From positions 1 through 64,000 of the forward strand of contig JAIBEW010000010.1 of the NCBI GenBank assembly GCA_019459085.1: 64,000 nucleotides of DNA. Reading direction: 5' to 3'. This DNA comes from Kaistella sp. GTDB lineage: Bacteria > Bacteroidota > Bacteroidia > Flavobacteriales > Weeksellaceae. Under the pieces are notes generated by a model, which saw only the letters and a program-made list of their open reading frames with translations, was not told the DNA's origin and searched no databases. Position numbers and translations under genes: made by a program. This document shows, in pieces, positions 8,236 to 25,144 of the stretch. Numbering within the stretch: position 1 is the stretch's first letter; every line of letters starts with the position of its first letter.

Positions 8236-8282
8236 ATCCGTCAGTTTCTTTGAGTTATAAAATTTGGAGAATTATGGAATCA

Positions 8283-8741
8283 TTATTCCGATCCATATTT
8301 GTTGACAATGGCCATTTGTCCGGCATGGTAAGCCGTATGCGAAACAATTCTTCCGAAGGCTTCGGCTTTTGTTTTGGCACCGAATTCTTTGGTGGAAATC
8401 ACGGTTTCCCAATCGGCATCCGTTTGGTTTGCAACAATGCTGTACAGCGTTTCAAAAGATGATTTCAGATACTCTTTCAGTTCCTGCAGATCGGTCCAGA
8501 CACCGGTGTCGTGTCCGTCAATAACAGTTTTTGCGAACACCTTCACTTCCGGATTTCCAAAAACATTCTTTGCAAACAGCAGTTCAACATCGGCCATGTG
8601 GCGGATGAGGAAACCGACGGAATTGGGAGCAGGCAACAGTTTTTTCCTAAGATCTTCTGAAGTCAGACCATCCAACTGTTTGGTGAATCTCGTTCTGGCT
8701 TCCATCCAGAGTTCCAACAGTAATTCGGTTTTTGTTTTCAT
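8283..8741 (-). CDS. DinB family protein
   Basis: 152 residues that fit the DinB/YfiT four-helix fold. An early His sits in FLIRHMADVE and two more in the C-terminal SHTAYHAGQM; together they form the usual three-His metal site of this family. Many DinB-like proteins are metal-dependent thiol transferases (for example bacillithiol-dependent), but none has an assigned role in arsenic resistance. Here it sits inside the arsenic operon between the DUF2892 protein and the ACR3 pump, so a thiol-linked detoxification role is a reasonable inference and no more. Confidence 0.8.
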   Translation of the reverse strand: MKTKTELLLELWMEARTRFTKQLDGLTSEDLRKKLLPAPNSVGFLIRHMADVELLFAKNVFGNPEVKVFAKTVIDGHDTGVWTDLQELKEYLKSSFETLYSIVANQTDADWETVISTKEFGAKTKAEAFGRIVSHTAYHAGQMAIVNKYGSE

Positions 8742-8878
8742 CGGTTTTTTTCTTAAGTATTAAAGTCATTTTCTTTCACAATAAATTAAACACAGTCATC
8801 CTGCCGGAAGCACTGATTAAGGGCAATCCGGGCCTGATTCAAACGCTTTCTTCAACACCAATTTGTAATGAATCCCAT

Positions 8879-9091
8879 TTAAGGTTGCTTATCCCTTGGA
8901 CAGGTATTCATTCCAAAAAGTGCATAAAGCGGGCAGAAACTGATTAAACTTGTTAATACAAATACGCCTGCCAAAACCAAAAGCACGATTCCTAAAGTTC
9001 CGGAGATCACATTTGTAAAAAATAGAACTGCGATCAGTACTGCAATCAGTATTCTGATGATTTTGTCGGTGGAGCCCATGTTTTTTTTCAT
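8879..9091 (-). CDS. DUF2892 small membrane protein
   Basis: 70 residues: an N-terminal MGSTDKIIRI motif, two transmembrane helices separated by a Gly-rich turn, and a C-terminal CPLYALFGMNTCP with the paired Cys typical of DUF2892 (YgaP-like) proteins. The function of the family is unknown. In many genomes it accompanies rhodanese or metal-resistance genes. Here it is within the arsenic operon, 123 bp after the arsenate reductase. Translation could start at Met1 or Met5. Two further proteins of this general type occur in the sulfur cluster of this window (14861-15097 and 17297-17506). Confidence 0.85.
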   Translation of the reverse strand: MKKNMGSTDKIIRILIAVLIAVLFFTNVISGTLGIVLLVLAGVFVLTSLISFCPLYALFGMNTCPRDKQP

Positions 9092-9213
9092 TGTTTTGAA
9101 TTTTAGATTGTTTTAGTATTTTCGTTCATCTAATCCCTTATAAAAATTACACCATCCGCCAGAAAGAAATGTTGCCACCGGATGGAAATGTCAATGCATT
9201 AGCGGTTCCCCCT

Positions 9214-9825
9214 TTAAATTGTTACAGATTGCATCACAAAATGCATTTCAGCGGCAATTTCCTGACTTCTTTCAAAATAGGTACGGTCCATTTCATGGGT
9301 TCCGTCGCTGGATTTTGGATCTTCAAATTTTATCGGGATGCGTTTTTCAGCGCCGGCGATAAAAGGACAGCCAGCATCGGCATTCGAACAGGTTATTATT
9401 GCAGCAAAACCCGAAACAGGATTGAAGGCATCATCATATTTTTTAGAAAAACAGATGACAGGATGAGCATTTTCCGCATATTTTACGGCGTATACCGGGT
9501 TATCGGTTTCAGAGAGTCTCTGAATTTCAAGTCCCTGCCACTCCAGCGTTTCTGCCACTTTCGGAAACATGGCCGTAGCCTCGGTTCCGCCCGAATAACA
9601 GAATACATTTTTAATTTTAAAATACTCTGCCATTACCTGCGCCCAGATCTGGGACAGATGGCTTCTCCTGGAATTGTGGGTGCAAATGAAGTTCAGGTTG
9701 ATTTTTTCGCCGGCATCTGCTTTTTTCTGAATGAATTCCGCCAGTGGTTTTAAAATTTCCTTTCTCTCGTCTGATAGGTGCATGATGGCAATGACCTCAA
9801 TGCTTTCTTTTAATTTTGCAAACAT
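9214..9825 (-). CDS. arsC: thioredoxin-type arsenate reductase (LMW phosphatase fold)
   Basis: 203 residues with the low-molecular-weight tyrosine-phosphatase P-loop C-T-H-N-S-R-R (Cys48 to Arg54), preceded by a roughly 40-residue N-terminal extension. Two further cysteines, Cys146 and Cys153 in TCSNADAGCP, have the spacing and context of Cys82 and Cys89 (CSDADNNC) in the Staphylococcus pI258 ArsC. These carry out the disulfide relay that reduces arsenate to arsenite. The full catalytic triad therefore argues for arsenate reductase rather than a plain phosphatase, and the surrounding ars genes agree. Start: ATG at 9825. The open frame reaches 9951, but that part overlaps the preceding gene's 3' end. 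Reductant: probably thioredoxin. Confidence 0.8.
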   Translation of the reverse strand: MFAKLKESIEVIAIMHLSDERKEILKPLAEFIQKKADAGEKINLNFICTHNSRRSHLSQIWAQVMAEYFKIKNVFCYSGGTEATAMFPKVAETLEWQGLEIQRLSETDNPVYAVKYAENAHPVICFSKKYDDAFNPVSGFAAIITCSNADAGCPFIAGAEKRIPIKFEDPKSSDGTHEMDRTYFERSQEIAAEMHFVMQSVTI

Positions 9826-9866
9826 GTTTATAGGTTTTATTTGGTTTTTAGATGCTTTGAAATACT

Positions 9867-10331
9867 TTAGCAACATCCGGAGCCCGGAGCGCAACTGCTG
9901 CCCTGCAGGTCGGCCATTTTCACCTTTGGTTTCTCCTGCGGAATTCCACACGCATCTTCTGCAAGACAGGCGGTGGTTTTTGCGGTAAGTACAAACGCGC
10001 TTCCGTTAAATTCGAGTCCGAATTTCCCGATCGTCGACTGCTGGTATTCCACTTCGATTTCAGCATCTTCAAGACCCAGTTTGTCTTCGGAGAGTGCGAT
10101 TATTTTTCTCAGTTTTTCCGCTTCCAGGCGGTGGTCGTTATCCGTTGAAAACCACAACTGAAAGTTGATTGCTTTTTCGTCGCGGACCACGCCGCCACAG
10201 TCGATAAATTTTTTGTTGATCTGACCTACTTCGGTTACGTGGAAGTGTTCAGGGACCTGCTCGCCGTTTTGCAAAACAAAATGAAGTTCTGTAAGATCTG
10301 CGAGAATGGTTTTGATTTCTGAAAGTTTCAT
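9867..10331 (-). CDS. DUF6428 family protein
   Basis: 154 residues, soluble, no signal peptide. It matches the DUF6428 proteins that follow arsR in many Bacteroidota ars operons, with the core VPEHFHVTEVG near the start and W-F-S-T-D-N-D-H-R-L in the middle. The C-terminus is Cys-rich (SSCAPGSGCC) with two more Cys in ACLAEDACG just before, so metalloid binding is plausible but unproven. It lies 22 bp downstream of arsR and 41 bp upstream of the arsenate reductase, clearly in the same operon. The molecular function is not known. Confidence 0.85.
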   Translation of the reverse strand: MKLSEIKTILADLTELHFVLQNGEQVPEHFHVTEVGQINKKFIDCGGVVRDEKAINFQLWFSTDNDHRLEAEKLRKIIALSEDKLGLEDAEIEVEYQQSTIGKFGLEFNGSAFVLTAKTTACLAEDACGIPQEKPKVKMADLQGSSCAPGSGCC

Positions 10332-10353
10332 CTCTTTTGTTTTTTATTATTGA

Positions 10354-10686
10354 TTAACAGCAACCGTTTTCCTGTTTTTCTATTTTATGGAAAATATGGT
10401 CGATGAATGATTCGAATTTCTGCATCGTTTCTTTATTGATGCAGTATTTGATTGAGGTTCCCTCCACTGTTCCCTGAATGACGCCGGCATTTTTCAGTTC
10501 CTTTAAGTGCTGGGAAACGGTGGGCTGCGCAAGCGGAAGCACCTCCACAATATCATTGCAGATACAGGTATCGATTGAGAGCAGATAATCGATGATGGCA
10601 ATCCGGGCAGGATGTGCCATTGCTTTTAAGAGCACTGCCATTTCATTCTGTTCTGCGGTAAAATGTTCTGTTTTAGTAATTCCCAT
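10354..10686 (-). CDS. arsR: ArsR/SmtB family metalloid-sensing repressor
   Basis: 110 residues with a winged-helix DNA-binding core: LKAMAHPARIAIIDYLL, then the recognition helix around AQPTVSQHLKELKNAGVI. The alpha-3 metal-box segment contains D-T-C-I-C-N-D, equivalent to the ELCVCDL As(III) site of classic ArsR, and the protein ends in Cys-Cys. Such repressors leave DNA when As(III) or Sb(III) binds. It is the first gene of the ars operon (arsR, DUF6428, arsC, DUF2892, DinB, ACR3). A perfect inverted repeat overlapping the -7 box 18 bp upstream is the likely self-regulatory operator. Confidence 0.92.
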   Translation of the reverse strand: MGITKTEHFTAEQNEMAVLLKAMAHPARIAIIDYLLSIDTCICNDIVEVLPLAQPTVSQHLKELKNAGVIQGTVEGTSIKYCINKETMQKFESFIDHIFHKIEKQENGCC

Positions 10687-13844: not shown

Positions 13845-14549
13845 TTATTTAGAAAGCTGTTTTCTTACTTCCTCTTCAGGTACAAAACCCAGTTTTTCCC
13901 AGACAACTTCATTATTCCGGTACAGTTTCAGGACAGGAAGCGCAGAGACATTCAGTTCTTTGCAAAGCTCTGTATTTTCATCAACATTTATCCGAACAAT
14001 TTTAACTTTATCGGGCATTTCTGCGGCTATTTTTTTGAGATAAGGCTCCATTTTTTTGCACGGAGCACACCATTCTGCATAGAAATCTACCAAAACCGGA
14101 GTTTCACTTTTCAACATTTCATTGTATTGGGCAACGCTCATTCCGACAGAAGTGGAAGCTTTGATTTCGGGAAGATCGGCATTTCTCCATTTCATCATTC
14201 CGCCCTGCATTTCATAGACATTTTTAAAGCCCATTTCCTCTAGTTTTGCTGCGGCTGCAGTACTTCTAGGCCCACTCAAACAATATACAAAAACAGGTTT
14301 ATTTTTATCCAATGCCGCAGCTTTTTCTGCAAAATCATCAGCAGACCAGTCGATATTCATGGCGTTTTTAAGATGTCCGTTCCGGAATTCTCCCGCTGTT
14401 CGTACATCCACCAACTGTGCATCTTTGATTTTATCTAATTTCTGAGAAAATTCGGTTGCAGAAAGACTGCTTCCATCAGGGCTTTTCTGTGCTTTTCCAC
14501 ATCCCGTCAATACAATAATGAATAAGGCAATAATAAGATTTCTATACAT
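13845..14549 (-). CDS. lipoprotein with fused rhodanese and thioredoxin domains
   Basis: 234 residues. A lipoprotein signal (LTGC, Cys17) anchors it to a membrane on the periplasmic side. A rhodanese domain (about residues 28-130) has the active loop C-L-S-G-P-R-S (Cys90). A thioredoxin domain (about 138-234) has W-C-A-P-C (Cys161, Cys164) and the cis-Pro in SALPVLK. Rhodaneses carry persulfide sulfur on Cys; a tethered thioredoxin could reduce or offload it, making this a plausible self-contained periplasmic sulfur-transfer unit (inference). It lies 3 bp after trxA and is the last gene of an operon starting at the metallo-beta-lactamase/rhodanese gene. Such fusions are known but the physiological substrate is not. 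Confidence 0.85.
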   Translation of the reverse strand: MYRNLIIALFIIVLTGCGKAQKSPDGSSLSATEFSQKLDKIKDAQLVDVRTAGEFRNGHLKNAMNIDWSADDFAEKAAALDKNKPVFVYCLSGPRSTAAAAKLEEMGFKNVYEMQGGMMKWRNADLPEIKASTSVGMSVAQYNEMLKSETPVLVDFYAEWCAPCKKMEPYLKKIAAEMPDKVKIVRINVDENTELCKELNVSALPVLKLYRNNEVVWEKLGFVPEEEVRKQLSK

Positions 14550-14552
14550 TTT

Positions 14553-14849
14553 TTAACTGTTTTCTTTAATTAATCTTTCGAGTTCATCGGACTGAAAAAC
14601 GCCGGACTGCTTCCATTTTACTTCGCCGTTTTTAAAAATCATCATGGTCGGGACACTTCGGATTCCGAACTGAGCGGCAACTGCCTGATTTTTATCCACA
14701 TCAATTTTAATGATATTGGCGGTGTCGCCTATTTTCTTTTTCAGATCCTGAAGAATCGGCGCCTGCATTTTACACGGGCCGCACCATTCTGCGAAAAAAT
14801 CCACCAATACAGGTTTGTCCTGACGGATTATTTCCTGAAATTTATTCAT
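14553..14849 (-). CDS. trxA: thioredoxin
   Basis: 98 residues, cytosolic, the standard thioredoxin length minus a few N-terminal residues. The active site W-C-G-P-C is followed by K-M-Q, and the conserved cis-proline is in IRSVPTMMIFKNG. It reduces disulfides and could also accept sulfane sulfur from rhodanese or persulfide substrates. It is encoded between a DUF2892-type membrane protein (12 bp upstream) and the rhodanese-thioredoxin lipoprotein (3 bp downstream), so it is an accessory thioredoxin dedicated to this operon rather than the sole cellular one (inference). Confidence 0.92.
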   Translation of the reverse strand: MNKFQEIIRQDKPVLVDFFAEWCGPCKMQAPILQDLKKKIGDTANIIKIDVDKNQAVAAQFGIRSVPTMMIFKNGEVKWKQSGVFQSDELERLIKENS

Positions 14850-14860
14850 TTATTTTGGAT

Positions 14861-15097
14861 TTATTTAATTTCCTCATATTCTACTTCATCAATAGTTTCC
14901 TTAGAATTTCCTGTAGGCACCGGACAGTTTCCTGTTGCACAACAACCGATGTTCAGCAATGGCATCAGCACAAAAACCGCTCCAACCAAAACCAGAAACC
15001 AGTTTGCTGATTTCAGAGCTTCCACCACCAGCAAAACGCCTATTGCCAGACGGAATACTCTAAAAAAGTCCCAGTTTTTATATATTTTCTGTATCAT
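14861..15097 (-). CDS. small DUF2892-like membrane protein
   Basis: 78 residues from the ATG at 15097. The frame could also begin at a TTG at 15118 overlapping the upstream stop, but the ATG form is more likely. Two hydrophobic helices (FRLAIGVLLVVEAL and WFLVLVGAVFVLMPLL) are followed by N-I-G-C-C-A-T-G-N-C-P, a paired-Cys motif like that of rhodanese-associated YgaP/DUF2892 membrane proteins, and then an acidic tail. It probably sits in the inner membrane beside the rhodanese proteins of this operon. Function unknown; the Cys cluster facing one side could take part in persulfide handling (inference). Confidence 0.75.
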   Translation of the reverse strand: MIQKIYKNWDFFRVFRLAIGVLLVVEALKSANWFLVLVGAVFVLMPLLNIGCCATGNCPVPTGNSKETIDEVEYEEIK

Positions 15098-15110
15098 CTT
15101 AAATATTTTT

Positions 15111-16499
15111 CTAAACAATGGGGTTTCCTTTTTCTTCCCATTCTTTCATTCCGCCAGAAAAATTTTTGATGTTGGCAAAACCGTTCTTTCTGAGAACTGA
15201 ATATGCAATTGACGCTCTGTCGCCGCTCTGACAGTGAATAACGACCTGTTTATCCTTTGAAAATTTATCAAGATTTTCTGCGAGCGTTCCTACAAAAACA
15301 TTTTCTGCCCCTTCCATGTGACCTTCTTCAAACTCAGTTTTACCCCTAACATCTACAATCTGCACCTCGTTACGGTTGAGATACTTTTTAAACTCATCCA
15401 GATTGATCACCTCAGCGGTCTGAAGTTCCAAGTCGGGTACTTTAACATCATCAATATATCCCATCATATTGTCCATTCCGATCCGCATCAGTTTTCTGGT
15501 AAGATCTTCGATTTGTTCGTCGCCGGCAACAAGAATAAATGGCTCTGCGTAACTGATCATCCAGCCCATCCAAGTGGAGAACGAATTATTGCCCTGAATA
15601 TTGATGCTTTTTGGAATAAAACCGGCTGCAAAATCAGTTTTATCGCGGGTATCAATGATTTTCACCTCTTCAGAATGCGCTTTTAGAAATTCTTCCTTAG
15701 AAAGTTTCTTCTGTTTCGGAACTTCGGTTAATAAAGGTCTTTCTGTTTTGTTGAGCTTTTTCATCATCGCGAAGTACTTTGGTGGTTCCGGCTGACCCTC
15801 CAAAAGCTCATCTACAAAACCTTCTTCATCATTATCGTACTGAAAAGCCCAGTTTCTTATTTTTTCGTAACCGACTGTTGAACTTGGCACTGCTCCCAAA
15901 GCCTTTCCGCAGGCAGAACCGGCACCGTGTCCCGGCCAAACCTGAATAAATGGCGAAAGCTTACTGAAATCCTGCACCGACCTGTACATTTCTTTAGCGC
16001 CTTTTTCCTGAGTTCCGATGAGTCCGGCGGCTTTTTCCAATAAATCGGGGCGGCCAATATCTCCTACAAAAACAAAATCTCCGGTGAAAATCATGACCGG
16101 TTCATCGGTTGCAGGATGATCGGTCAATAAAAAGCTGATGCTTTCAGGGGTGTGACCTGGTGTATGAAGAATTTCCAAAGTCAGATTTCCAACGTTTATT
16201 TGATCTCCGTTTTTCAGACCTTTATGCGGAAATTCGTATTGCCAGTCGGCCCCGCCTTCATCAGAAAGATACAGATCGGCACCTGTAACCGCTGCCAATT
16301 CGCGGGAACCGGAAAGAAAATCTGCATGAATATGCGTTTCGGTAATATGCGTAATTTTGAGATTGTTATCTTTTGCTATCTGCAGATAAGTATCAATATC
16401 TCTTTTGGCATCAATAACAATTGCCACGCCTTGTGCCTGACAACCGATTAAATAACTGGCCTGTGCTAAACTTTTATCGTAAATGTGTTGAAAAAACAT
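15111..16499 (-). CDS. persulfide dioxygenase-like MBL hydrolase with two rhodanese domains
   Basis: 462 residues. The N-terminal metallo-beta-lactamase domain (1-250) carries THIHAD (His56, His58, Asp60), HTPGHT (His112, His116), GDFVFVGDIGR (Asp141) and GHGAGSACG (His191). This arrangement belongs to the ETHE1-like persulfide dioxygenases, although Phe61 replaces the His that usually follows the Asp. A first rhodanese domain (about 270-350) has lost its Cys: the loop reads LVAGDE. The second (about 365-462) is intact with C-Q-S-G-D-R (Cys423). The family oxidises glutathione or other persulfides to sulfite and moves sulfur. It is first in its operon, preceded by a CRP-type site and a perfect -7 box. 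The persulfide role is family knowledge, not proven here. Confidence 0.85.
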   Translation of the reverse strand: MFFQHIYDKSLAQASYLIGCQAQGVAIVIDAKRDIDTYLQIAKDNNLKITHITETHIHADFLSGSRELAAVTGADLYLSDEGGADWQYEFPHKGLKNGDQINVGNLTLEILHTPGHTPESISFLLTDHPATDEPVMIFTGDFVFVGDIGRPDLLEKAAGLIGTQEKGAKEMYRSVQDFSKLSPFIQVWPGHGAGSACGKALGAVPSSTVGYEKIRNWAFQYDNDEEGFVDELLEGQPEPPKYFAMMKKLNKTERPLLTEVPKQKKLSKEEFLKAHSEEVKIIDTRDKTDFAAGFIPKSINIQGNNSFSTWMGWMISYAEPFILVAGDEQIEDLTRKLMRIGMDNMMGYIDDVKVPDLELQTAEVINLDEFKKYLNRNEVQIVDVRGKTEFEEGHMEGAENVFVGTLAENLDKFSKDKQVVIHCQSGDRASIAYSVLRKNGFANIKNFSGGMKEWEEKGNPIV

Positions 16500-16527
16500 A
16501 TTTTTTACTGTTTAATATTTATACGTG

Positions 16528-16572
16528 CAAAGTTATCTTTTATTTTACCCATTGTCAGTAACCTCGATTACA
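16528..16572 (-). promoter_or_regulatory. CRP-type activator site and promoter of the MBL-rhodanese operon
   Basis: On the minus strand the 16-mer TGTAATCGAGGTTACT (16572-16557) is followed by a perfect -7 box TAACTTTG (16535-16528). The gap between the 14-bp core (16558-16571) and the box is 22 bp, which would place the site near -41/-43, a class II activator position. The same motif with the same spacing precedes tolC and the lone rhodanese gene. Confidence 0.75.
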
Positions 16573-16582
16573 TAAGCCAAAA

Positions 16583-17206
16583 TTACTGCTTAACCGCTAA
16601 AATCATTGCTACTGAAGCTTCTCCTTTGTGGTAATCTCCTTCACTCAATGTAATGGTTTTAATCGCGGCTTCTTTGAAATCAAAGTTTTCGAAATCTCTT
16701 TTTAATTCTTCAAGACTGTAGAGCATTTCAGGATCGCGTGGACCGCCGGATCGCGGATCATTCTTCTGATATGCTTCCTGAAGTTTGGAAAACCCTTCTA
16801 TAATCAGGAAGCCTCCCGGTTTCAGAAATTTTGCGAGTTTCTGATGAATCCTTCGCCTTTGATCTCCCGGAAAGTGGGCATAAATTAAAGCCAAAGCATC
16901 AAAATAATGTTCGGAATAGTTGATACTCTGAACATCAGAAACGGTATATGAAATCTCCGCATTGTTTTGCTCTGCCAAGGCAAGCGCCTTCTTTTTTCCT
17001 TCTGCGCTCTGATCAAAAGCTTCAGTTGTCCAACCCATCTGCGCTGCGAAAACAGAATTCCTGCCTTCTCCTTCAGCCGGAAATAAAATTTTACCGGGCG
17101 TAATTTCTTTCAGTTTTTCTTTTAAATAATAGTTGGGCGAGGTTCCGTAAATATATTCCGTCTGACGGTAACGTTCGTTCCAGAAATTCTTCTGATCCAT
17201 ATTCAT
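16583..17206 (-). CDS. class I SAM-dependent methyltransferase
   Basis: 207 residues with a Rossmann methyltransferase fold. The SAM-binding motif I appears as LFPAEGEGRNSVFAAQMG, followed by an acidic motif II (EAFDQS) and KFLKPGGFLIIEGF as post-motif III. The N-terminal FWNERYRQTEYIYGTSPN is typical of the TehB/thiopurine-methyltransferase-like group that methylates tellurite, selenium or sulfur compounds and thiols. In a cluster devoted to sulfur transfer a thiol or chalcogen substrate is plausible, but this is inference. It stands 83 bp upstream of the MBL-rhodanese gene in the same direction; the CRP-type site lies between them, so that gene has its own promoter. Confidence 0.82.
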   Translation of the reverse strand: MNMDQKNFWNERYRQTEYIYGTSPNYYLKEKLKEITPGKILFPAEGEGRNSVFAAQMGWTTEAFDQSAEGKKKALALAEQNNAEISYTVSDVQSINYSEHYFDALALIYAHFPGDQRRRIHQKLAKFLKPGGFLIIEGFSKLQEAYQKNDPRSGGPRDPEMLYSLEELKRDFENFDFKEAAIKTITLSEGDYHKGEASVAMILAVKQ

Positions 17207-17296
17207 CTTTTGTCTATAAAATTAATTCTTTTGCAGGCAAATAGAAACCGTTTTTAAAACAAAACCATCGAAAACTTTTCTAATTTTCTCCGGATA

Positions 17297-17506
17297 TTAT
17301 CTGGAACAATTGGTAGGACCATCGTCTTTGATCCCGATTTTCCCCAGGATCAAATACATCAGACACCAATTGGTCAAAGCGTGTATCCACAGATTCACTC
17401 CGACAAAACCTGTAAGCCAGAACCAGTTTTGATTTACATAAATTCCTAATAATAAACTGGCTAAAATAATGGTTCCCGCTACCGCGTGGACTGTTCTTGT
17501 TTGCAT
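17297..17506 (-). CDS. DUF2892 (YgaP-like) small membrane protein
   Basis: 69 residues with two membrane helices (AGTIILASLLLGIYV and FWLTGFVGVNLWI) followed by N-W-C-L-M-Y-L-I-L-G-K-I-G. This resembles the membrane part of YgaP, in which a DUF2892 domain is fused to a rhodanese. Here the unit is free-standing, but several rhodanese proteins are encoded close by. The C-terminus ends T-N-C-S-R. It lies 10 bp after the small cytosolic protein gene at 17517 and probably shares its transcript. No independent function is known. Confidence 0.8.
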   Translation of the reverse strand: MQTRTVHAVAGTIILASLLLGIYVNQNWFWLTGFVGVNLWIHALTNWCLMYLILGKIGIKDDGPTNCSR

Positions 17507-17516
17507 TTTTTTGATT

Positions 17517-17816
17517 TTAAATGGATTTTTCTAACGGTAAAGTCGCAATATGAATGTGCGAAAATGTTTTTTGCTTTGAATTGAAATCTTCTACACTTTT
17601 ATAGATTTCATCGGCAAATTCATCTTCCATAAATACCGTAAAAAGTAAAGAATCAACAGACAAATGATCCTTTGCAAACCAGTTTTCACGTTCATTTCCA
17701 TTATTCTTGTAGCCTTTTACCGACTGATAGGAAAAAGATTTCACGCCAGAATGTTTCAGAATATTTTTCACTTCTTTTCCAAATTCTTCTACTGCTGTAA
17801 TTAATAAGAGTTTCAT
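17517..17816 (-). CDS. small cytosolic protein, possibly PII-like, next to the RND pump
   Basis: 99 residues. The N-terminus MKLLLITAVEEF, the helix that follows (GKEVKNILKHSGVKSFSYQSV) and the later strand LLFTVFMEDEFADEIY suggest a ferredoxin-like alpha/beta trimer fold, as in PII-type and DUF3240-like proteins. The latter are repeatedly found beside CusA/CzcA-type RND genes. I cannot confirm the family from reading alone. There is no obvious uridylylation T-loop tyrosine. It lies 146 bp downstream of the RND permease gene and 10 bp upstream of the DUF2892 gene. A regulatory or metal-sensing link to the pump is inference from position. Confidence 0.6.
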   Translation of the reverse strand: MKLLLITAVEEFGKEVKNILKHSGVKSFSYQSVKGYKNNGNERENWFAKDHLSVDSLLFTVFMEDEFADEIYKSVEDFNSKQKTFSHIHIATLPLEKSI

Positions 17817-17923
17817 ATGTAGATTTTTTATTGTGTTAAGGTTATGTAGAATCGCAGCGTCTTGATCAGTATTTCCAAATCAAGGCGATTTCTTATGTTT
17901 TAGGTTTTTTCAACCAAGTAGTT

Positions 17924-17956
17924 AAACCTCACAGATTTAAGAGACCTGTGAGGTTT
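17924..17956 (+). terminator. 11-bp perfect hairpin between RND permease and PII-like genes
   Basis: AAACCTCACAG pairs perfectly with CTGTGAGGTTT around an 11-nt loop. The T-tract (ATTTTTTT) is on the plus strand, although the flanking genes run on the minus strand, where only a weak TTTAA follows. It may therefore be an interspersed hairpin repeat of the kind common in Bacteroidota rather than a true terminator. It could still stabilise the 3' end of the RND mRNA. Confidence 0.55.
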
Positions 17957-17962
17957 ATTTTT

Positions 17963-20900
17963 TTACTCTTCAGAGATCTTATTTTCAACCTCTGTTTTAC
18001 TTTCCCATTTCTTCCTTTCCGTTACATAATAAATCAACGGCACTACAATCAGCGTAAGGATGGTTGAAACGATCGCCCCAAAAACAAGCGAGATTGCCAA
18101 ACCTTGAAAAATCGGATCGAAAAGAATAATCACCGCGCCAATAACCACCGCTCCTGTTGTTAATAAGATCGGCGTTGTGCGCACTGCTCCGGCTTCGATA
18201 ATGGCCTGTTTGATGGGAACTCCCTCATTCAGACGGATTTCTATAAAATCAATCAGCAATACCGAATTCCGCACCATTACCCCAGCCAAAGCAATCATTC
18301 CGATGAAAGAAGTTGCCGTAAAAAAAGCGCCTAAAATCCAGTGTCCGAGAACAATTCCTATCAGCGACAGCGGAATGGCAATCATCATGACCAGCGGTGT
18401 TTTAAAATTCTGAAACCAACCCACAATGAGCATATAAATAATAATGATCACCACTGCGAACGCTGCGCCCAGATCTTTAAAGACCTCTAACGTAATTTGC
18501 CATTCACCATCCCATTTTACGGTGTAATCAGACTCATTTTCAGGCTGATTCATATACAGTTCGTTGAGTGAATACCCTTGTGGAAGCTTTATTTTATTGA
18601 GTTTTTCGTCCATTCCCAAAATGGCGTAAGCCGGACTTTCCAAACCACCTGCCATATCGGCAAGCACATACACTACCCGCTTCTGGTCTTTTCTGTAAAT
18701 AGATTTTTGCAGTGTATCGCGCTGTACTTGTACCAGATCGCTTACCGGAACCATTCCCATTTGTCCTTTCACTTTCAGATTGGTTACGTCCTGAATGGTT
18801 GATTTATCACTGTTATTGAGTTTCATTACAATATCAACTCCATCGTTTGATTTTTCAGTATATAAATTTCCGATGGAATGTTCGCCCATTAAATACGTCA
18901 GATTCCCTACAATTTGTTCCGGCGCAACACCGTTCAGCATTGCTTTTTCTTTGTCCGGAACCAGTTTGAATTCTGTTTGAGGTGCTTCTACCATCCAGTC
19001 AATATCCACCACATCGTCGGTTTTGTGCAGAATTTCCTGCACCTGTTTTGCAACTTTTACCTGCCCCTCGTAATCAGGTCCATAAATTTCAGCAACAATG
19101 GTTGATAAAACGGGCGGTCCCGGCGGAACTTCCACAATTTTTACATTGGCCCTGTATTTTGCCGCAATTTTCTGAATTTCCGGCCGGATTTTTTTTGCAA
19201 TATCGTGGCTTTGCGCATCGCGATCTGCTTTAGGCAAAAGATTCACCTGAATATCCGACGTATTGCTGGCTCCTCTCATATCGTAATGGCGAACCAGACC
19301 GTTGAATGTAATGGGTGATGACGAACCGACATAATTCTGATAATTCACCACTTCAGGAATGGTTTTCAGATATTGTGCAATGTCCTGAGTGGCAGCTGCT
19401 GTTCTTTCTAAAGTGGTTCCTTCGGGCAAATCGATCACGAGCTGAATTTCATTTTTATTATCAAACGGAAGCATTTTTACTGCTACCCATTTCGTAAAGA
19501 ATGCCAAAACCGAAATCAATAAGAGTACACCGATAATTCCCATCATCGTCCATCTTTTTGATGTGCTGTCGAGTAACGGTTGTTCTATTTTTTTATAAAT
19601 TTTATAGATTCTGCCAGTTTCCAACCCTTGTTCTTCTTTATGCTGTTCGGTGTCTTTTACTTTTAATAAATGAAAACCTAAATATGGTGTTACCGTTAAA
19701 GCCACAAATAACGAAAGCAACATCGCAATTGATGCTCCAATGGGCATTGGCGACATATAAGGACCCATCATTCCGGAAACGAACGCCATTGGCAAAATCG
19801 CGGCAATTACGGTGAAGGTTGCTAAAATAGTTGGATTTCCGACTTCATTAATGGCATAAATGGCCGCCTGCCTGAACGGTAATTTCTTCATGTGGAAGTG
19901 CCGGTGCATATTTTCGGCGATAATAATGCTGTCGTCTACCACAATTCCCACCACAAAAACCAGTGCAAAAAGCGTGATTCGGTTCAGCGTGTAACCGAGC
20001 ATATAATAACTGAAAAGCGTCAAAGCAAACGTCAGCGGAACGGAGAAAAACACCACCAATCCGCCTCTCCAGCCCATGGCAAGCATGACGAGGACTGTTA
20101 CAGCCAGAATTGCAATTCCAAGGTGAAGCAATAATTCAGAAACTTTGTGGGAAGCGGTTTCGCCGTAGTTTCTGGTCACTTCTACATGAACATCATCAGG
20201 AATTAAATTTTTCTTCAGTTCATCCACTTTGGCAAGAATCTGCTCCGAAATTTTCATCGCATCGGCTCCTTTTACTTTAGAAACCGACAGCGTTACTGCA
20301 GGATATTCCGATTTAAATTTTTTCCCGTTTTCGAGCGCATTTCCGTATCCGAAGCTTACATAATTCTGCGGAGAAGCTGCCCCGTCTTCGATTTCGGCCA
20401 CCTGTTTCAGGTAAACCGGCATATTTTGGGAGGTTCCAACTACCAAATTTTCCACATCTTCTGCTGAATTTAAAAACTGTCCCGTTGTTAAAAGATATTC
20501 TTCATCGTTGGAAACAAAACTTCCGGACTGTGAACTTCCGTTACTTGCCTGTATCATCTGCATTACCGAAAGCGCATCCACATTCAGCTCCGCCATTTTA
20601 TCTTTATCAACAACAACTTTCAGCTGTCGGTTTCGTCCGCCGATCACGTTGGTAAGCGAAACATCTTTTATTTTTTTGATTTCCGACGACAGTTCTTCCC
20701 CGATCTGGCGAAGCTGGTAATCGTTGTATTTTTCGCTCCAAAGGGTGAGTCCCAACATCGGAACATCATCAATAGAACGGGTTTTCACCATCGGTTCCAT
20801 CACATTTTTCGGAAAAATGTGCTTGTTTTTCATCAGTTCATCATACAATTTCACATACGAACGTTCCGTGTCTTCTCCGACATAGAACTGTACGATGATC

Positions 20901-21184
20901 ATTGCTTTCCCGTTCATCGCCATGGAGTGAATATGTTCCACCCCTTTGATGTTGGAAATGATTTTTTCCAACGGTTTTACCACCCGGTTTTCTACTTCTT
21001 TTGGTGAAGCTCCCGGATAACCCACCATTACATCGGCCATTGGCACAATGATTTGTGGCTCTTCTTCTCTTGGTATTAATGTGGAGCTGTACATCCCGAT
21101 GATCATCAACGCGACCATTAATAAAATCGTCAGTTTTGAATTGATGAAAAACTCGGCGATACGTCCTGCGAATCCTTTTTCCAT
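17963..21184 (-). CDS. RND efflux transporter permease
   Basis: 1073 residues, the usual RND length. The layout is one N-terminal helix, a large periplasmic loop (about 35-330), a block of helices, a second periplasmic loop, and final helices ending YYVTERKKW. The proton-relay region in helix 4 reads F-V-V-G-I-V-V-D-D-S-I-I-I-A-E-N, with the Asp pair of HAE1-type drug/organic pumps, rather than the single Asp motif of CzcA/CusA metal pumps. Together with the HlyD adaptor and TolC-type channel encoded upstream it forms a tripartite efflux system from the inner membrane to outside. The substrate is unknown; given the neighbours it could be a sulfur- or thiol-derived compound (inference). Confidence 0.92.
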   Translation of the reverse strand: MEKGFAGRIAEFFINSKLTILLMVALMIIGMYSSTLIPREEEPQIIVPMADVMVGYPGASPKEVENRVVKPLEKIISNIKGVEHIHSMAMNGKAMIIVQFYVGEDTERSYVKLYDELMKNKHIFPKNVMEPMVKTRSIDDVPMLGLTLWSEKYNDYQLRQIGEELSSEIKKIKDVSLTNVIGGRNRQLKVVVDKDKMAELNVDALSVMQMIQASNGSSQSGSFVSNDEEYLLTTGQFLNSAEDVENLVVGTSQNMPVYLKQVAEIEDGAASPQNYVSFGYGNALENGKKFKSEYPAVTLSVSKVKGADAMKISEQILAKVDELKKNLIPDDVHVEVTRNYGETASHKVSELLLHLGIAILAVTVLVMLAMGWRGGLVVFFSVPLTFALTLFSYYMLGYTLNRITLFALVFVVGIVVDDSIIIAENMHRHFHMKKLPFRQAAIYAINEVGNPTILATFTVIAAILPMAFVSGMMGPYMSPMPIGASIAMLLSLFVALTVTPYLGFHLLKVKDTEQHKEEQGLETGRIYKIYKKIEQPLLDSTSKRWTMMGIIGVLLLISVLAFFTKWVAVKMLPFDNKNEIQLVIDLPEGTTLERTAAATQDIAQYLKTIPEVVNYQNYVGSSSPITFNGLVRHYDMRGASNTSDIQVNLLPKADRDAQSHDIAKKIRPEIQKIAAKYRANVKIVEVPPGPPVLSTIVAEIYGPDYEGQVKVAKQVQEILHKTDDVVDIDWMVEAPQTEFKLVPDKEKAMLNGVAPEQIVGNLTYLMGEHSIGNLYTEKSNDGVDIVMKLNNSDKSTIQDVTNLKVKGQMGMVPVSDLVQVQRDTLQKSIYRKDQKRVVYVLADMAGGLESPAYAILGMDEKLNKIKLPQGYSLNELYMNQPENESDYTVKWDGEWQITLEVFKDLGAAFAVVIIIIYMLIVGWFQNFKTPLVMMIAIPLSLIGIVLGHWILGAFFTATSFIGMIALAGVMVRNSVLLIDFIEIRLNEGVPIKQAIIEAGAVRTTPILLTTGAVVIGAVIILFDPIFQGLAISLVFGAIVSTILTLIVVPLIYYVTERKKWESKTEVENKISEE

Positions 21185-21257
21185 AATATTTGGTTTTCGT
21201 GTTTAGAGGTTACGAGTTGCGAAGTAAAACCAGCAACGCGTACCTCGAAACTTGAAT

Positions 21258-22346
21258 TTATTTTAAAGTTACTTTTGCTCCGTTATACAATTTACCTTTA
21301 GCTGAAACGATGTAAGGTTCTTTTGAATTTAAACCTGATACCACTTCTACCTGATCTCCTACTGTTTTACCTGTTTTTAACCAGCGCAAAACGGCTGTGT
21401 TTTGTGAACTCATCACATAAACTCCTGTTAACTGTCCGTTTTGTACCACAGCAGATTTTGGAATCATGACGGTTTCCTGAAAATCCTGATTGATTTTTCC
21501 TGAATTTTTAAACGGAAACTGCACATTCACAAACATTCCCGGTAACAGATCAGCGGAAGCAGGAATATTAATTTTCACCATATACTGGCCACCGGTGTTT
21601 GCAGCAGATTTGCTGATTTCGGAAACCGTTCCGCCAACGGTTTTGCCGACGGATTTCATCGTAACCTGAACCGGCATTCCTTGCTGGATCAGCGTAATAT
21701 ATTGCTCGGAAACCAAAACCTGCGCCTGCAAAGCTCCTGAAGATTCTATCGTGAGCAAAGGCATTCCCGGACTTGCCATATCGCCCTGCTCGGCGAATTT
21801 CGCGGTGATGGTTCCGGAAATCGGAGCGGTAATATTGGTGTATCTGTATTGAGAATTCACTTCGTTTTTCATTTGCTGGGCGACCTGTAAACCCGCCTGC
21901 GCCATTTCGTAACGCGCTCTCATATCATCTAATTCTTTTTGCGATGCACTTTGATTCTTATATAAATTCTGGTATCTCGCGTAATCTTTTTTAGCAATAT
22001 TGAACTGAGCCTGAGCCTGCGAAATCTGCGCACTCGCCTGTCCGCCTTTTGCCTGAATATCAGTAGAATTGATGCTCACCAAGCCCTGTCCTGCTCTTAC
22101 GTTCTGCCCGACTTCTGCTCTCATCGATGTGATGTAACCCATCATTCGGGTAGAAACATTTACGGAATTTTTGGCCACCAATTTGCCTGTTGCGGTTGTT
22201 GACAAACCAAGAGTGTTACCTGATGATTTATTTACAGTGACCGAAATGGGTGCATCGGTGTTTTGTACCGATTTTTTTTCGTCTGATGAGCAGCTGCTGA
22301 AAAGCACGGCTGATAAAAGGAGACCGGAATAAAGGTATGTTTTCAT
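21258..22346 (-). CDS. RND efflux periplasmic adaptor (HlyD/MFP family) lipoprotein
   Basis: 362 residues. A lipoprotein signal (LFSSC) is followed by a barrel/lipoyl half (MGYITSMRAEVGQNVRAGQGL), an alpha-hairpin rich in A/Q/K (about residues 100-160), and the returning lipoyl half YTNITAPISGTITAKFAEQGD. Beta-barrel and membrane-proximal domains end near KLYNGAKVTLK. The adaptor bridges the RND permease and the outer-membrane channel. Its stop lies 73 bp before the permease ATG and its start 262 bp after tolC. That 262-bp gap shows no promoter or CRP-type site, so it is probably co-transcribed with tolC. Confidence 0.92.
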   Translation of the reverse strand: MKTYLYSGLLLSAVLFSSCSSDEKKSVQNTDAPISVTVNKSSGNTLGLSTTATGKLVAKNSVNVSTRMMGYITSMRAEVGQNVRAGQGLVSINSTDIQAKGGQASAQISQAQAQFNIAKKDYARYQNLYKNQSASQKELDDMRARYEMAQAGLQVAQQMKNEVNSQYRYTNITAPISGTITAKFAEQGDMASPGMPLLTIESSGALQAQVLVSEQYITLIQQGMPVQVTMKSVGKTVGGTVSEISKSAANTGGQYMVKINIPASADLLPGMFVNVQFPFKNSGKINQDFQETVMIPKSAVVQNGQLTGVYVMSSQNTAVLRWLKTGKTVGDQVEVVSGLNSKEPYIVSAKGKLYNGAKVTLK

Positions 22347-22368
22347 AATTTTTTATTTTTATCTGAAG

Positions 22369-22399
22369 CTTGCCAAGTATTTAAAACTCTGACAAGGTT
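22369..22399. repeat. imperfect hairpin repeat in the tolC-adaptor gap
   Basis: CTTGCCAAG and a later TGACAAGG form a loose stem around an AT-rich loop. This is like the interspersed elements seen between genes in Flavobacteriia. It is the only structure noticed in the 262-bp gap; the rest is T-rich and featureless. Confidence 0.3.
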
Positions 22400-22608
22400 G
22401 GTTGGTTTATATTTTTCTTTACTTTCTATGTTAAGTCAATGTTTTACTTTTTTTTCGGCGTGTTGATAGCCCCGATGGAAACGGCATCCTTTTTCTTTTT
22501 ATGGAAGGGAAAAGCGCCGGCAAAAAGAAAAAGATATAGTGGACAGCGGGAATTTGCTCCTAAAAAAATGAAGTAAACAACTCCTGAGTTCTTTGTTCAC
22601 CGCAATAC

Positions 22609-23916
22609 CTAATTCTTTAAAAATTTATAATATTCTACAGCGGTATTGTACTCATAAATGGCCTGTATGTGTTCCAGTTCTTTTTGTGACATTTGGGTTT
22701 CGGCAGTGAGCAGATCAGCAGATTTTTCCAGACCCTGATCATAACGGTTTTTGCGGATTCGGTAGGCTTCTTTATTTTGTTCCCAGGCCATTTTCGTGAG
22801 GTTTACCTTGTTTTCGGCATCCTGAACCTGGCGCGAAGTTTTCTGGAGTTCTAACTGGCTTTGCTTCTCGTACTGTTGAATTTCGGTCTGGGCTTTGCTC
22901 AGTTCCGCTTTTAATCGCTGCTGTTCGCTTTTGGCTTTCAGACCGTCGAAAACATTCCATGAAAGTTGGATTCCTGCCAAATATCCATTGGCATCGAACT
23001 GTGCAATTTTGTTATCGTACATCTCGAAACTTCCGAATGCATTAAGTTTTGGGAGAAATTTCGCTTGAGAAGATTTGATCATCAAATCATAAGCTTCCAG
23101 AGATTTCTGGTAGGCCAGTAAATCTTTTCTGTTGGAATTCAAAGTAGGATTGCGCTCTACAATATTTTCATGATATTCCAATGTTTCCGTTGGTTTCAGG
23201 ACTTTGTTCCCGTAATTTTCGTCGAGCAGAAAATAGAGATAATCGGAGGCATTTTTAATATGGGATTTGGCGTAAGCAATCTGATTTTCGATTTCTTTCA
23301 GACGTACATCCATATACAAAACTTCAGATTTCTGAATGATGCCATTTTGGTAATAATTGTCGATGACCTTCTTGTTGGCCATCGTAGTTTTTTGGGCATT
23401 CTCTAAAGTTTCGACGGTTTTATAGGCCATTTGCAGCGTCATATATGCTTTTTTAAGCTCAAACCGAACGCTTTCTTTGGTTCTTTCGGTTTTGATTTTC
23501 AAAACATCGGATTTGATCTGTCCGGCCTTTTTCTGATAAACCGCATCGATATTGATGATGGGTTGCTGAATTTCTAATTTGGTGGCAAAATTGGAAATGC
23601 TTTTCGGAGAATTGAGGTTATCGGGATTGAAATCCATCATTGTAATCCTTTCCTGATTGAGCTTTGATCCAAATGCATACAGCGGATTGTTGGTGTTAGA
23701 AAAAGTGTAAGATGCGTTGATATTCGGGAGATACATCGCTCTTGTTCCCAACAGTTCAGCATCGGCAAGTTCGGCTTCTTTTTGCGCCATTTTTACCTGA
23801 AGGTTGTTATCGATAATTTTCTGCTCCAGTTCGGTTTGGGAAATCCGGACGGTATCCTGCGAAAATATTTGGTGAAAGGTGGTAACTGATAAAATAAGTA
23901 CCCAGACTTTTTGCAT
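22609..23916 (-). CDS. TolC family outer membrane efflux protein
   Basis: 435 residues with a signal peptide ending near IFS-QDT, followed by two long repeats of heptad-rich alpha-helix separated by short strands, the TolC/OEP architecture. Typical pieces are NLQVKMAQKEAELADAEL early, and G-I-Q-L-S-W-N-V-F-D-G-L-K-A-K in the second half (the OEP signature 'W.lFdG'). It forms the outer-membrane and periplasmic tunnel of the efflux system with the HlyD adaptor and RND permease that follow. Its promoter has a CRP-type site and a perfect -7 box; a terminator separates it from the rhodanese gene upstream. Confidence 0.9.
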   Translation of the reverse strand: MQKVWVLILSVTTFHQIFSQDTVRISQTELEQKIIDNNLQVKMAQKEAELADAELLGTRAMYLPNINASYTFSNTNNPLYAFGSKLNQERITMMDFNPDNLNSPKSISNFATKLEIQQPIINIDAVYQKKAGQIKSDVLKIKTERTKESVRFELKKAYMTLQMAYKTVETLENAQKTTMANKKVIDNYYQNGIIQKSEVLYMDVRLKEIENQIAYAKSHIKNASDYLYFLLDENYGNKVLKPTETLEYHENIVERNPTLNSNRKDLLAYQKSLEAYDLMIKSSQAKFLPKLNAFGSFEMYDNKIAQFDANGYLAGIQLSWNVFDGLKAKSEQQRLKAELSKAQTEIQQYEKQSQLELQKTSRQVQDAENKVNLTKMAWEQNKEAYRIRKNRYDQGLEKSADLLTAETQMSQKELEHIQAIYEYNTAVEYYKFLKN

Positions 23917-23932
23917 AATCTTTAATTTTTTG

Positions 23933-23977
23933 CAAAGTTAGACTGGTGGAAACGGCTGCACAGTAACCTATATCACA
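23933..23977 (-). promoter_or_regulatory. CRP-type activator site and promoter of the tolC-hlyD-RND operon
   Basis: On the minus strand TGTGATATAGGTTACT (23977-23962) precedes the -7 box TAACTTTG (23940-23933), with exactly 22 bp between the 14-bp core and the box. The leader to the tolC ATG is then only about 10 nt. No TTG -33 element is present, as expected for an activator-dependent promoter. Confidence 0.75.
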
Positions 23978-24034
23978 TAGGCCAATAATCTACCTCAAAA
24001 GACCTGTTTTTTTCTTGAAACTTCATAAAAAAAA

Positions 24035-24050
24035 CCGCCCGTGAAGGCGG
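24035..24050 (-). terminator. terminator after the lone rhodanese gene
   Basis: CCGCC / GGCGG stem with a 6-nt loop. Read on the minus strand the stem runs straight into eight T residues. It separates the rhodanese transcript from the tolC promoter. Confidence 0.8.
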
Positions 24051-24151
24051 CTACAATTATAATTATGAAATACGTTATCATTCTGGTCTGAGAAACCACC
24101 GTTCAGATTTTTGAAGTACCAAAAAATCACACTCTGATTTCTGCAGTACTC

Positions 24152-24469
24152 TTACGATGATAATTTAGCGTTCAAACTGCTCCATCCTCCGCCATTGTGT
24201 ACATTCCCGTAACCGTTATTCTGGAGAATGGTTTTTGCAGTGGCACTTCTCATTCCCGATGCGCAGCAGGTAATGATCGGTTTGTCTTTATTCTTTAGTT
24301 TTGAAAGGTTGCTTTGAAGCTGATCAACAGGAATATTGATGGAGTTTTTGATATGTCCGTCAGCATATTCGTTTTTGCTTCTTACATCAAGAATTATAGC
24401 ACCTTGCTTTAGAAGATCTGCATAATCGGTTTTATCCATACCGAAAAGGTTTTTTATTGCATCTAACAT
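24152..24469 (-). CDS. single-domain rhodanese sulfurtransferase
   Basis: 105 residues, a GlpE/PspE-sized rhodanese without signal peptide, so cytosolic. The domain entry (AIILDVRSKNEYADGHIKNSINIP) and the active-site loop C-A-S-G-M-R (Cys69, with a second Cys at 68) are intact, so it should accept and donate sulfane sulfur. It lies 67 bp downstream of the CRP-type regulator gene but has its own CRP-type site and -7 box; the site overlaps the regulator's stop codon. A strong terminator follows, making it a one-gene transcript, probably the closest reporter of the regulator's activity. Confidence 0.92.
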   Translation of the reverse strand: MLDAIKNLFGMDKTDYADLLKQGAIILDVRSKNEYADGHIKNSINIPVDQLQSNLSKLKNKDKPIITCCASGMRSATAKTILQNNGYGNVHNGGGWSSLNAKLSS

Positions 24470-24495
24470 TGTTGTTTCATTTAAAATTAATGATG

Positions 24496-24540
24496 CAAAA
24501 GTACAGTCTTTGGAACACGAAGTCAGTGATGTATGTTACA
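24496..24540 (-). promoter_or_regulatory. CRP-type activator site and promoter of the rhodanese gene
   Basis: The minus strand reads TGTAACATACATCACT (24540-24525), then 22 bp from the 14-bp core, then TACTTTTG (24503-24496), a perfect TAnnTTTG. The site overlaps the stop codon (24536-24538) of the regulator gene. It is the third copy of the motif in this cluster, with identical spacing. Confidence 0.75.
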
Positions 24541-25144
24541 AAAGGGTAATTTTATTTCGGGAAAGTTTTATTTTTCCCTCAGTTTCTATCTGTTTCAGTA
24601 CGCGGCTTACCGCTTCTCTCGTAATGCCGAGCTCGTCTGCAAGCTGCTGATGCGTAACAGAAAGTTCTTTAGATTTATACAGTTGTGATTTCTGATCCAA
24701 TAAATATAAAAGTCTGACATCTACTTTTTGGAAAGCAATTGAATTCACCATCGTTACCAAATCCTCAAACCGTTTGTGATACAATTGGAAAACAAAAGTT
24801 GACCACTCGGGATATTTGGTGAGCCATTCCTTGCCTTTTGAAAGTGACAACATCAGAATTTCAGCATCCTCTTCCACAATTGCCTTGACCTTTGAAGTGT
24901 CCTGAGCAAGTCCTGAAAGTATGGATGAAATACAACTTTCGCCGGGGGTGAGGTAATACAAAAGGATTTCTCTCCCGTCTTCTTCAGTTCTTACGACCTT
25001 AACACTCCCCGATATTACCAGTGGAATGTAGTTAACATAAGAATTAATATCTAAAATAACCGAACCTGACGGGAAGTGCTTCAGATCGCGGCTCGCTGCA
25101 ATTTCTTTTTTGAATTCAGGATCTACAATTTCAGAAATATTCAT
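24536..25144 (-). CDS. Crp/Fnr family transcriptional regulator
   Basis: 202 residues from the ATG at 25144; the longer open frame to 25243 would place the promoter inside the gene. A cyclic-nucleotide-binding-like beta-roll (about 15-120) contains DGREILLYYLTPGESC. A dimerisation helix (120-150) and a helix-turn-helix follow: THQQLADELGITREAVSRVL. In the recognition helix Arg176, Glu177 and Arg181 match the R-E-x-x-x-R bases-contacting set of E. coli CRP, which reads TGTGA. There is only one Cys (71), so no FNR-like iron-sulfur cluster. The typical cAMP-binding Arg-Ser pair is not seen, so the ligand is unknown. It likely activates the three promoters in this cluster carrying TGTRA-N6-TYACT. 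Confidence 0.9.
   Translation of the reverse strand: MNISEIVDPEFKKEIAASRDLKHFPSGSVILDINSYVNYIPLVISGSVKVVRTEEDGREILLYYLTPGESCISSILSGLAQDTSKVKAIVEEDAEILMLSLSKGKEWLTKYPEWSTFVFQLYHKRFEDLVTMVNSIAFQKVDVRLLYLLDQKSQLYKSKELSVTHQQLADELGITREAVSRVLKQIETEGKIKLSRNKITLL

Follow-up and report, generated by a model that had tools for sequence, protein, structure and literature searches.

A Crp/Fnr-family protein of Kaistella sp. as a probable class II activator of sulfide and persulfide oxidation genes

The cyclic AMP (cAMP) receptor protein CRP of E. coli binds TGTGA-N6-TCACA-like sites, and in the class II activator position its site is centred at –41.5. The persulfide sensors CstR, SqrR/BigR and FisR carry CsoR, ArsR or AAA+ sigma54 domains, whose folds differ from that of Crp/Fnr proteins. 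Here we analysed positions 1 to 64,000 of contig JAIBEW010000010.1 of Kaistella sp. (assembly GCA_019459085.1), a stretch of 64,000 nucleotides referred to below as the window, which holds a gene for a Crp/Fnr-family protein and three similar 16-bp sites, each at the same distance from a –7 box. The reading we favour, with a probability of roughly 0.78, is that this protein activates sulfide/persulfide oxidation genes from the class II position; it would act through four operators and respond to an inducer deduced from the target genes.

FisR is a sigma54 activator of the sulfide:quinone oxidoreductase (SQR) and persulfide dioxygenase (PDO) genes in Cupriavidus and Acinetobacter (PMC7315123), and CstR and SqrR/BigR are persulfide-sensing repressors (PMC7315123, PMC8148161). 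The sulfide or persulfide regulators named in the relevant passages of these two papers are CstR, CsoR, SqrR/BigR and FisR, with OxyR and SoxRS; none of them is of the Crp/Fnr type, and none is described there for Bacteroidota. Acinetobacter Crp was reported to be persulfidated, and no Crp regulon for SQR or PDO is mentioned in the passages concerned (PMC7315123). The Crp/Fnr proteins of Porphyromonas gingivalis are presented, in the relevant parts of PMC12040651, as redox, nitrosative or ligand-free regulators, and the words 'sulfide' and 'rhodanese' are absent from its main text. Some Flavobacteriales Crp/Fnr homologues were predicted to be MalR-like carbon sensors, according to a passage of PMC8510549. 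No Crp/Fnr regulator of SQR or PDO was found among the literature matches listed, which is weak evidence of absence, subscription journals being mostly uncovered.

Like FisR, as described in those passages, the protein of the window would activate sulfide oxidation genes (SQR, PDO, TauE), but FisR is an AAA+ sigma54 activator, whereas here a Crp/Fnr protein would act at a TAnnTTTG promoter. With CstR and SqrR/BigR it would share the control of SQR, PDO and sulfurtransferase genes; these, however, are repressors, and the dithiol pair of BigR (C34, C100) contrasts with one invariant cysteine here. PgRsp and HcpR of P. gingivalis are likewise Crp/Fnr proteins of Bacteroidota, but they differ in that heme binding is reported for them. 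The likeness to E. coli CRP at class II promoters lies in the domain make-up, the TGTGA-N6-TCACA-like site and the predicted centre at –41.5, and the differences lie in the absence of an arginine at the R82 position, the flavobacterial –7 box and the sulfur gene targets. A Pfam scan of the regulator gave no CsoR, ArsR or AAA+ sigma54 domain, only Crp/Fnr-type and generic helix-turn-helix (HTH) matches (HTH_11, MarR_2, Sigma70_r4). The nearest solved sequence is 3dv8 (E 1e-19), deposited as a Crp/Fnr-family regulator, for which a published function is not known to us. As a kind of regulator, a class II activator of the Crp/Fnr family is familiar; the novelty lies in the pathway targeted, in the host phylum and in the candidate input through a single cysteine. 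Were such a sensor real, a new fold would join the persulfide sensors CstR, SqrR/BigR and FisR, in the form of an activator at ordinary –7 box promoters.

The regulator gene, the operator sites and their boxes are as follows.

24536..25144, minus strand: Crp/Fnr-family regulator of 202 aa, proposed activator (PF00027 and PF13545 above cut-off)
24525..24540, minus strand: operator site 3, TGTAACATACATCACT, before the lone rhodanese gene (counterpart in 23/23 loci)
24496..24503, minus strand: –7 box TACTTTTG, predicted +1 at 24491
23962..23977, minus strand: operator site 2, TGTGATATAGGTTACT, before tolC-hlyD-RND (21/21 tolC-matching loci; position-based alignment)
23933..23940, minus strand: –7 box TAACTTTG, predicted +1 at 23928
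16557..16572, minus strand: operator site 1, TGTAATCGAGGTTACT, before the metallo-beta-lactamase (MBL)-rhodanese operon (strict site and box also in loci L018, L121 and L128)
16528..16535, minus strand: –7 box TAACTTTG, predicted +1 at 16523

An earlier note on this DNA had described three CRP-type 16-mers at 16572-16557, 23977-23962 and 24540-24525, each with 22 bp between its 14-mer core and a TAnnTTTG box, and had called their recurrence hard to explain by chance. All three were found at these places on the minus strand, with boxes at 16535-16528, 23940-23933 and 24503-24496, and the distance of 22 bp from the core, equal to a gap of 21 bp from the end of the 16-mer, held at 3/3 sites. The exact pattern WGTRAYN4RTYACW occurs three times in the window compared with 0.12 expected, and 0/100 shuffles gave three or more, which bears out the remark on chance. 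The sigma-A –7 box TAnnTTTG of Flavobacterium psychrophilum occupies –12 to –5 in the part of PMC9723704 concerned; when this register is applied, the site centre is predicted from sequence geometry to lie at –41.5, which fits a class II activator promoter, as the note had proposed. The predicted leaders at the three window sites and the fourth site described below are 24, 12, 22 and 16 nt long. The claim that the three sites lack a TTG element at –33 is literally true, but CTG stands there instead (ACTGAC, ACTGTG and ACTGAC); the site before SQR has no CTG (ACATAA). Since the T of CTG is kept in 56/62 and the G in 54/62 composites of site and box, the operator may extend over an incomplete –33 element. 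Site 3 and the stop codon of the regulator gene overlap. With their Bacteroidota –7 box, these promoters would be a clear example of probable dependence on an activator.

The 16-mer was found at 16 places in the genome, 15 of which were examined for a box (a place on contig 33 was left out). A box at gap 21 was observed at 4/15 places, with ∼0.016 expected at that one gap; outside the window it was 1/12, with ∼0.013 expected among 24 orientations. This fourth gap-21 site precedes a gene for a 399-aa flavoprotein (SQR1), which is followed by a Tll0287-family gene. The best PDB match of the flavoprotein is the Aquifex sulfide-quinone reductase 3hyv (E 6e-67, residues 3-394), and by homology to solved SQRs it is a predicted sulfide:quinone oxidoreductase; against NF049943 (type III SQR) it scored 119 bits, below the cut-off of 525. 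The site lies outside the original finding and points to the sulfide oxidation pathway, so the regulon of three sites put forward earlier stands as to these sites but is larger than was thought. The SQR1 copies of the Kaistella genome (L016:6740-7939) and of genome G035 (L100:7705-8901) are 97% identical, compared with 64% identity between the regulators of the two genomes. Of 80 family genomes, three, Kaistella included, have a close SQR1 copy. The pattern suggests that SQR was recently transferred into the regulon.

Conservation before orthologous operons had been set beforehand as a check, and the reading was not refuted by it. It covered 23 loci with a close relative of the regulator in 21 genomes (several of them metagenome-assembled), two genomes having two loci each. 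An exact-pattern site with a box at gap 21 is kept at the lone rhodanese promoter in 23/23 loci, and site and gap are kept at the tolC promoter in 21/21 loci with a tolC match (L017 and L037 have none). Altogether 47/50 16-mer places in these loci have a box at gap 21 on one side. The site is also retained in Bergeyella (L036), where ∼4 kb separate the regulator from tolC-hlyD-RND, which is encoded on the opposite strand. Two more gap-21 sites were found in L037, one before a Tll0287 gene and one before a type III SQR (650 bits against NF049943, cut-off 525). The site at the MBL promoter is the least constant of the three; it is kept in L018. The position-based alignment of the region upstream of tolC (the window and 20 of the 21 loci, L036 being left out) contained 25 invariant columns: eight in the 16-mer, three in the adjoining bases, six in the –7 box and eight elsewhere in ∼130 bases, so that 17/25 belong to the 16-mer, the next three bases or the box. 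The two genomes with two copies of the regulator-rhodanese locus are those of L017/L018 and L020/L021, and the L017 copy has no tolC match within 3.4 kb downstream.

The search was extended in the family to 20 further genome stretches and, from a longer match list, to 30 MBL loci including that of the window. Gap-21 sites were found before rhodanese, tolC, MBL, SQR1 and Tll0287 genes, among them SQR1 in G010 (L101) and Tll0287 in L103; in G035 (L100), SQR1, Tll0287, rhodanese and regulator all lie inside 3.5 kb. When the spacing was left free from 17 to 25, the scoring picked 21 for the three rhodanese promoters missed by the strict pattern (L100, L107 and L108). A gap-21 site was counted in 20/30 MBL loci, that of the window included, taking strict sites or scores >12, a threshold set afterwards; some of the site-less MBL loci are second genes in a run of MBL genes. 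For a pooled histogram of the window and 77 loci, chosen for the regulator or its targets, each place was read both ways. Among 153 distinct oriented 16-mers the box stood at gap 21 in 62 cases and at gaps 22, 43 and 44 in one each, with 0.107 expected per gap; the 12 oriented 16-mers of the reversed control had no box. Sites before orthologous genes cannot be counted as independent cases, and a better yardstick is how many unrelated gene types are involved: the same spacing was observed before at least six, namely rhodanese, tolC, MBL, SQR, Tll0287 and TauE.

At the level of the class, 132/247 genomes, the Kaistella genome and family members included, have a relative of the regulator at E 1e-35 or better. 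Matrix scoring of the best 29 new loci (L150-L178, with L175 from the same family as the window) gave a best gap of 21 in 20 loci, 22 in two and 23 in one, with no match in six. Base-shuffled copies showed no match in 25/29 and a maximum score of 14.8, which 18/20 gap-21 matches exceed. By Pfam, checked in 28 of the 29 loci (L168 was left out), a rhodanese, TauE, YgaP-like or OsmC gene lies close downstream of the regulator or site in 20/29; a DUF6132 gene stands behind the site in two (L152 and L166). The –7 box of the distant group is often [GC]AnnTTTG instead of TAnnTTTG, as expected of promoters that need an activator. One regulator family, operator and spacing across many Bacteroidia families would provide a precise, testable regulon together with a candidate cysteine. 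Near the MBL gene of loci L131, L132, L134 and L135, a more remote regulator was also seen (34-36% identity), which has three cysteines (GC...TCC); in two of the four, AGTAACCAATGTTACC lies 21 bp before TAACTTTG.

The product of 24536-25144 scored 42 bits against PF00027 (cut-off 27.5), 44.7 against PF13545 (27) and 30 against PF00325 (21), which places it by its domains, a cyclic-nucleotide-binding-type domain and a Crp-type HTH, in the Crp/Fnr superfamily. Cys71, R176, S180 and R181 are invariant in 83/83 distinct regulators, the last three lying in the recognition helix. Residue 177 is E in 38/38 near regulators; of the 45 others, 7 likewise have E, 33 have V and 5 have A, S or T. Sites were collected by searching for the left half-site followed at gap 21 by a box in relaxed form. 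The right half was RTYAC at 62/62 sites of regulators with E177 and at 4/44 sites of regulators with other residues, where GTAGCT-like forms prevailed. The earlier note had proposed this adjacent gene as the regulator, a choice that is consistent with its Crp/Fnr family and with a recognition helix that tracks the half-site.

The genes behind the three window sites are listed below.

24152..24469, minus strand: lone rhodanese, 105 aa (PF00581)
22609..23916, minus strand: TolC-type outer-membrane efflux protein (PF02321)
21258..22346, minus strand: HlyD-type periplasmic adaptor (PF16576, PF13437)
17963..21184, minus strand: RND (AcrB-type) efflux permease (PF00873)
17517..17816, minus strand: PII-like protein after the RND gene (PF00543 below cut-off, E 4e-4)
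15111..16499, minus strand: MBL-fold protein with two rhodanese stretches, of the persulfide-dioxygenase type (PF00753 and, in two stretches, PF00581)
14861..15118, minus strand: small protein of 85 aa (no Pfam match)
14553..14849, minus strand: thioredoxin (PF00085)
13845..14549, minus strand: rhodanese-thioredoxin fusion (PF00581 and PF00085)

The MBL-rhodanese protein showed near full-length matches to 3tp9 and 3r2u and partial matches to BpPRF and ETHE1. With its MBL fold, its rhodanese stretches and its homology to PRF/ETHE1 it is a predicted persulfide dioxygenase with rhodanese; its score against NF040641 (Blh) was 39.7 bits, below the cut-off of 625. The 85-aa protein is presumably a DUF2892 protein, a label that no Pfam match backs. 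The otherwise unassigned RND pump would be linked to sulfur stress, and the PII-like gene follows the RND gene in 14/18 loci containing the latter.

According to the mechanism that we propose, the three window sites and the site before SQR would be the operators of the 24536-25144 protein, whose dimer would bind WGTRA-N6-TYACW centred at –41.5. Bound in this class II position, the dimer would activate RNA polymerase at promoters with a well-formed –7 box that lack a complete –33 element. The predicted regulon comprises SQR, the MBL-rhodanese persulfide dioxygenase, rhodaneses, thioredoxins and the TolC-HlyD-RND pump, and in some relatives probably also the Tll0287-type protein. Judged from these targets, the inducer is most likely persulfide, polysulfide or sulfide, and the signal may be read by the invariant C71, which sequence alignment places near the ligand pocket and which is likely the sensor. 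Thus far the sites, their spacing and conservation, the gene content and the match between residue and half-site rest on sequence; binding, activation, inducer and the role of C71 are what we infer from them. Beyond the window, it is a tentative proposal, to which we would give slightly less than even odds, that a class-wide Bacteroidia Crp/Fnr family works as a single-cysteine persulfide/polysulfide sensor, in which C71, once modified by sulfane sulfur, would let the protein activate, from the class II position, the genes for SQR, persulfide dioxygenase, rhodanese, TauE/YgaP-like and RND proteins.

Two familiar signals of Crp/Fnr proteins were considered and rejected. R82 of E. coli CRP, which we take to be the phosphate-binding arginine of the cAMP pocket, corresponds to T83 of the window regulator in a gapless register and to V86 in the phmmer alignment, with no arginine in either; position 83 in 83 distinct regulators is T in 71, K in 9, P in 2 and R in 1 (gapless register). 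The Kaistella genome gave 0 matches to class III adenylate cyclase (PF00211), the one cyclase class covered by the search. A cAMP-dependent CRP was rejected on these two grounds, and cAMP is unlikely as the signal. The window regulator has one cysteine, and one cysteine in the matched part was also found in 37/38 near and 29/41 middle regulators; therefore an FNR-type 4Fe-4S cluster, whose four cysteines are absent, was rejected as well.

A number of observations weigh against the activator reading. The 16-mer alone is without genome-wide enrichment (16 places compared with 15 for the reversed control), and therefore the signal lies in the operator combined with its box rather than in the operator by itself. 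With one mismatch allowed, the window gave 10 matches compared with 4.92 expected, a number reached in 4/100 shuffles, so that within the window the excess over chance is clear for the exact pattern only. The matrix scan found no site at a second, probable MBL-rhodanese locus of the genome, on contig 2, nor at the rhodaneses outside the window (L182-L186; contigs 2, 18 and 23), and a wider regulon through these rhodaneses was rejected. The MBL promoter lacks the site in L025 and L027. No gap-21 site was found in 10/30 MBL loci (L127, L131, L133, L135, L139, L140, L141, L142, L147 and L149), five of the 20 with a site reach a score of just 12.3, and the boxes of L123 and L146 are weak. SQR1 of G035 has a gap of 22, and with free-spacing scoring neither SQR3 in L101 nor Tll0287 in L100 has a good site. 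Six of the 29 class-wide loci have other or unassigned neighbours (L150, L157, L159 with a thioredoxin-family gene, L167, L173 and L174). The half-site search gave no such site in 11 loci (two with E, nine with V), and the E/non-E split is one change on a 76-row tree (support 94/84); the match of residue 177 and half-site is one fitting evolutionary event, and many independent events were rejected. No site scoring above 10 lies before the regulator's own gene, and autoregulation was rejected on this account. Finally, 3dv8 has a cysteine at the C71 position, and therefore C71 need not be a sulfur sensor.

Some of these points bear on other explanations. That the sites arose by chance, or reflect shared ancestry of the DNA without function, could draw on the genome-wide count and on the non-independence of orthologous sites, but recurrence of the spacing in front of six or more gene types, and a conservation sharper than that of the flanks, make it scarcely credible; chance origin was rejected by the window enrichment (0/100 shuffles) and the gap histogram (62 at gap 21). 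That the sites serve some other Crp/Fnr paralogue or an unrelated factor, with the adjacent regulator incidental, is very improbable: the genome does hold a further match to the regulator (E 1e-30 or better), but the regulator gene ends at site 3 in 23/23 loci and the half-site varies with residue 177 of the adjacent protein.

Repression, or action both ways, from the same position seems improbable. Crp/Fnr proteins can repress, and a site over the –33 region could block the polymerase, but the fixed class II spacing, the lack of a full TTG at –33 and the frequent [GC]AnnTTTG box of the distant group suit an activator-dependent promoter. More weight is due to an explanation that keeps the regulator and the operators and changes the signal to redox state, heme, nitric oxide or oxygen; the sulfur genes would then be induced within a broader response to redox conditions. 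Heme binding and the sensing of redox or nitrosative stress are described for two Crp/Fnr proteins of P. gingivalis, PgRsp and HcpR, in the passages concerned (PMC12040651), and C71 is conceivable as a general thiol switch. Against this, most genes that follow the sites in the various families handle sulfur, and one cysteine in 37/38 close regulators leaves no FNR-type cluster; we regard this explanation as unlikely, and favour an activator that responds to sulfide or persulfide.

Some minor features were noted. On contig 2, at ∼121.1-122.0 kb (L182, L183 and L186), a second multi-rhodanese gene with a 483-aa open frame is followed by a rhodanese gene; judged by size, the frame is probably an MBL-rhodanese. 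A G+C-rich hairpin-like stretch followed by a T run on the minus strand lies at ∼24030-24050 of the window, between rhodanese and tolC, and is probably the terminator of the rhodanese unit; such a stretch was also seen at the equivalent place in relatives. A putative arsenic-type cluster was noted at 7165-10686 of the window, with ArsR-like regulator, arsenate-reductase-like and ACR3-like genes, the labels coming from reading of the open reading frames by eye.

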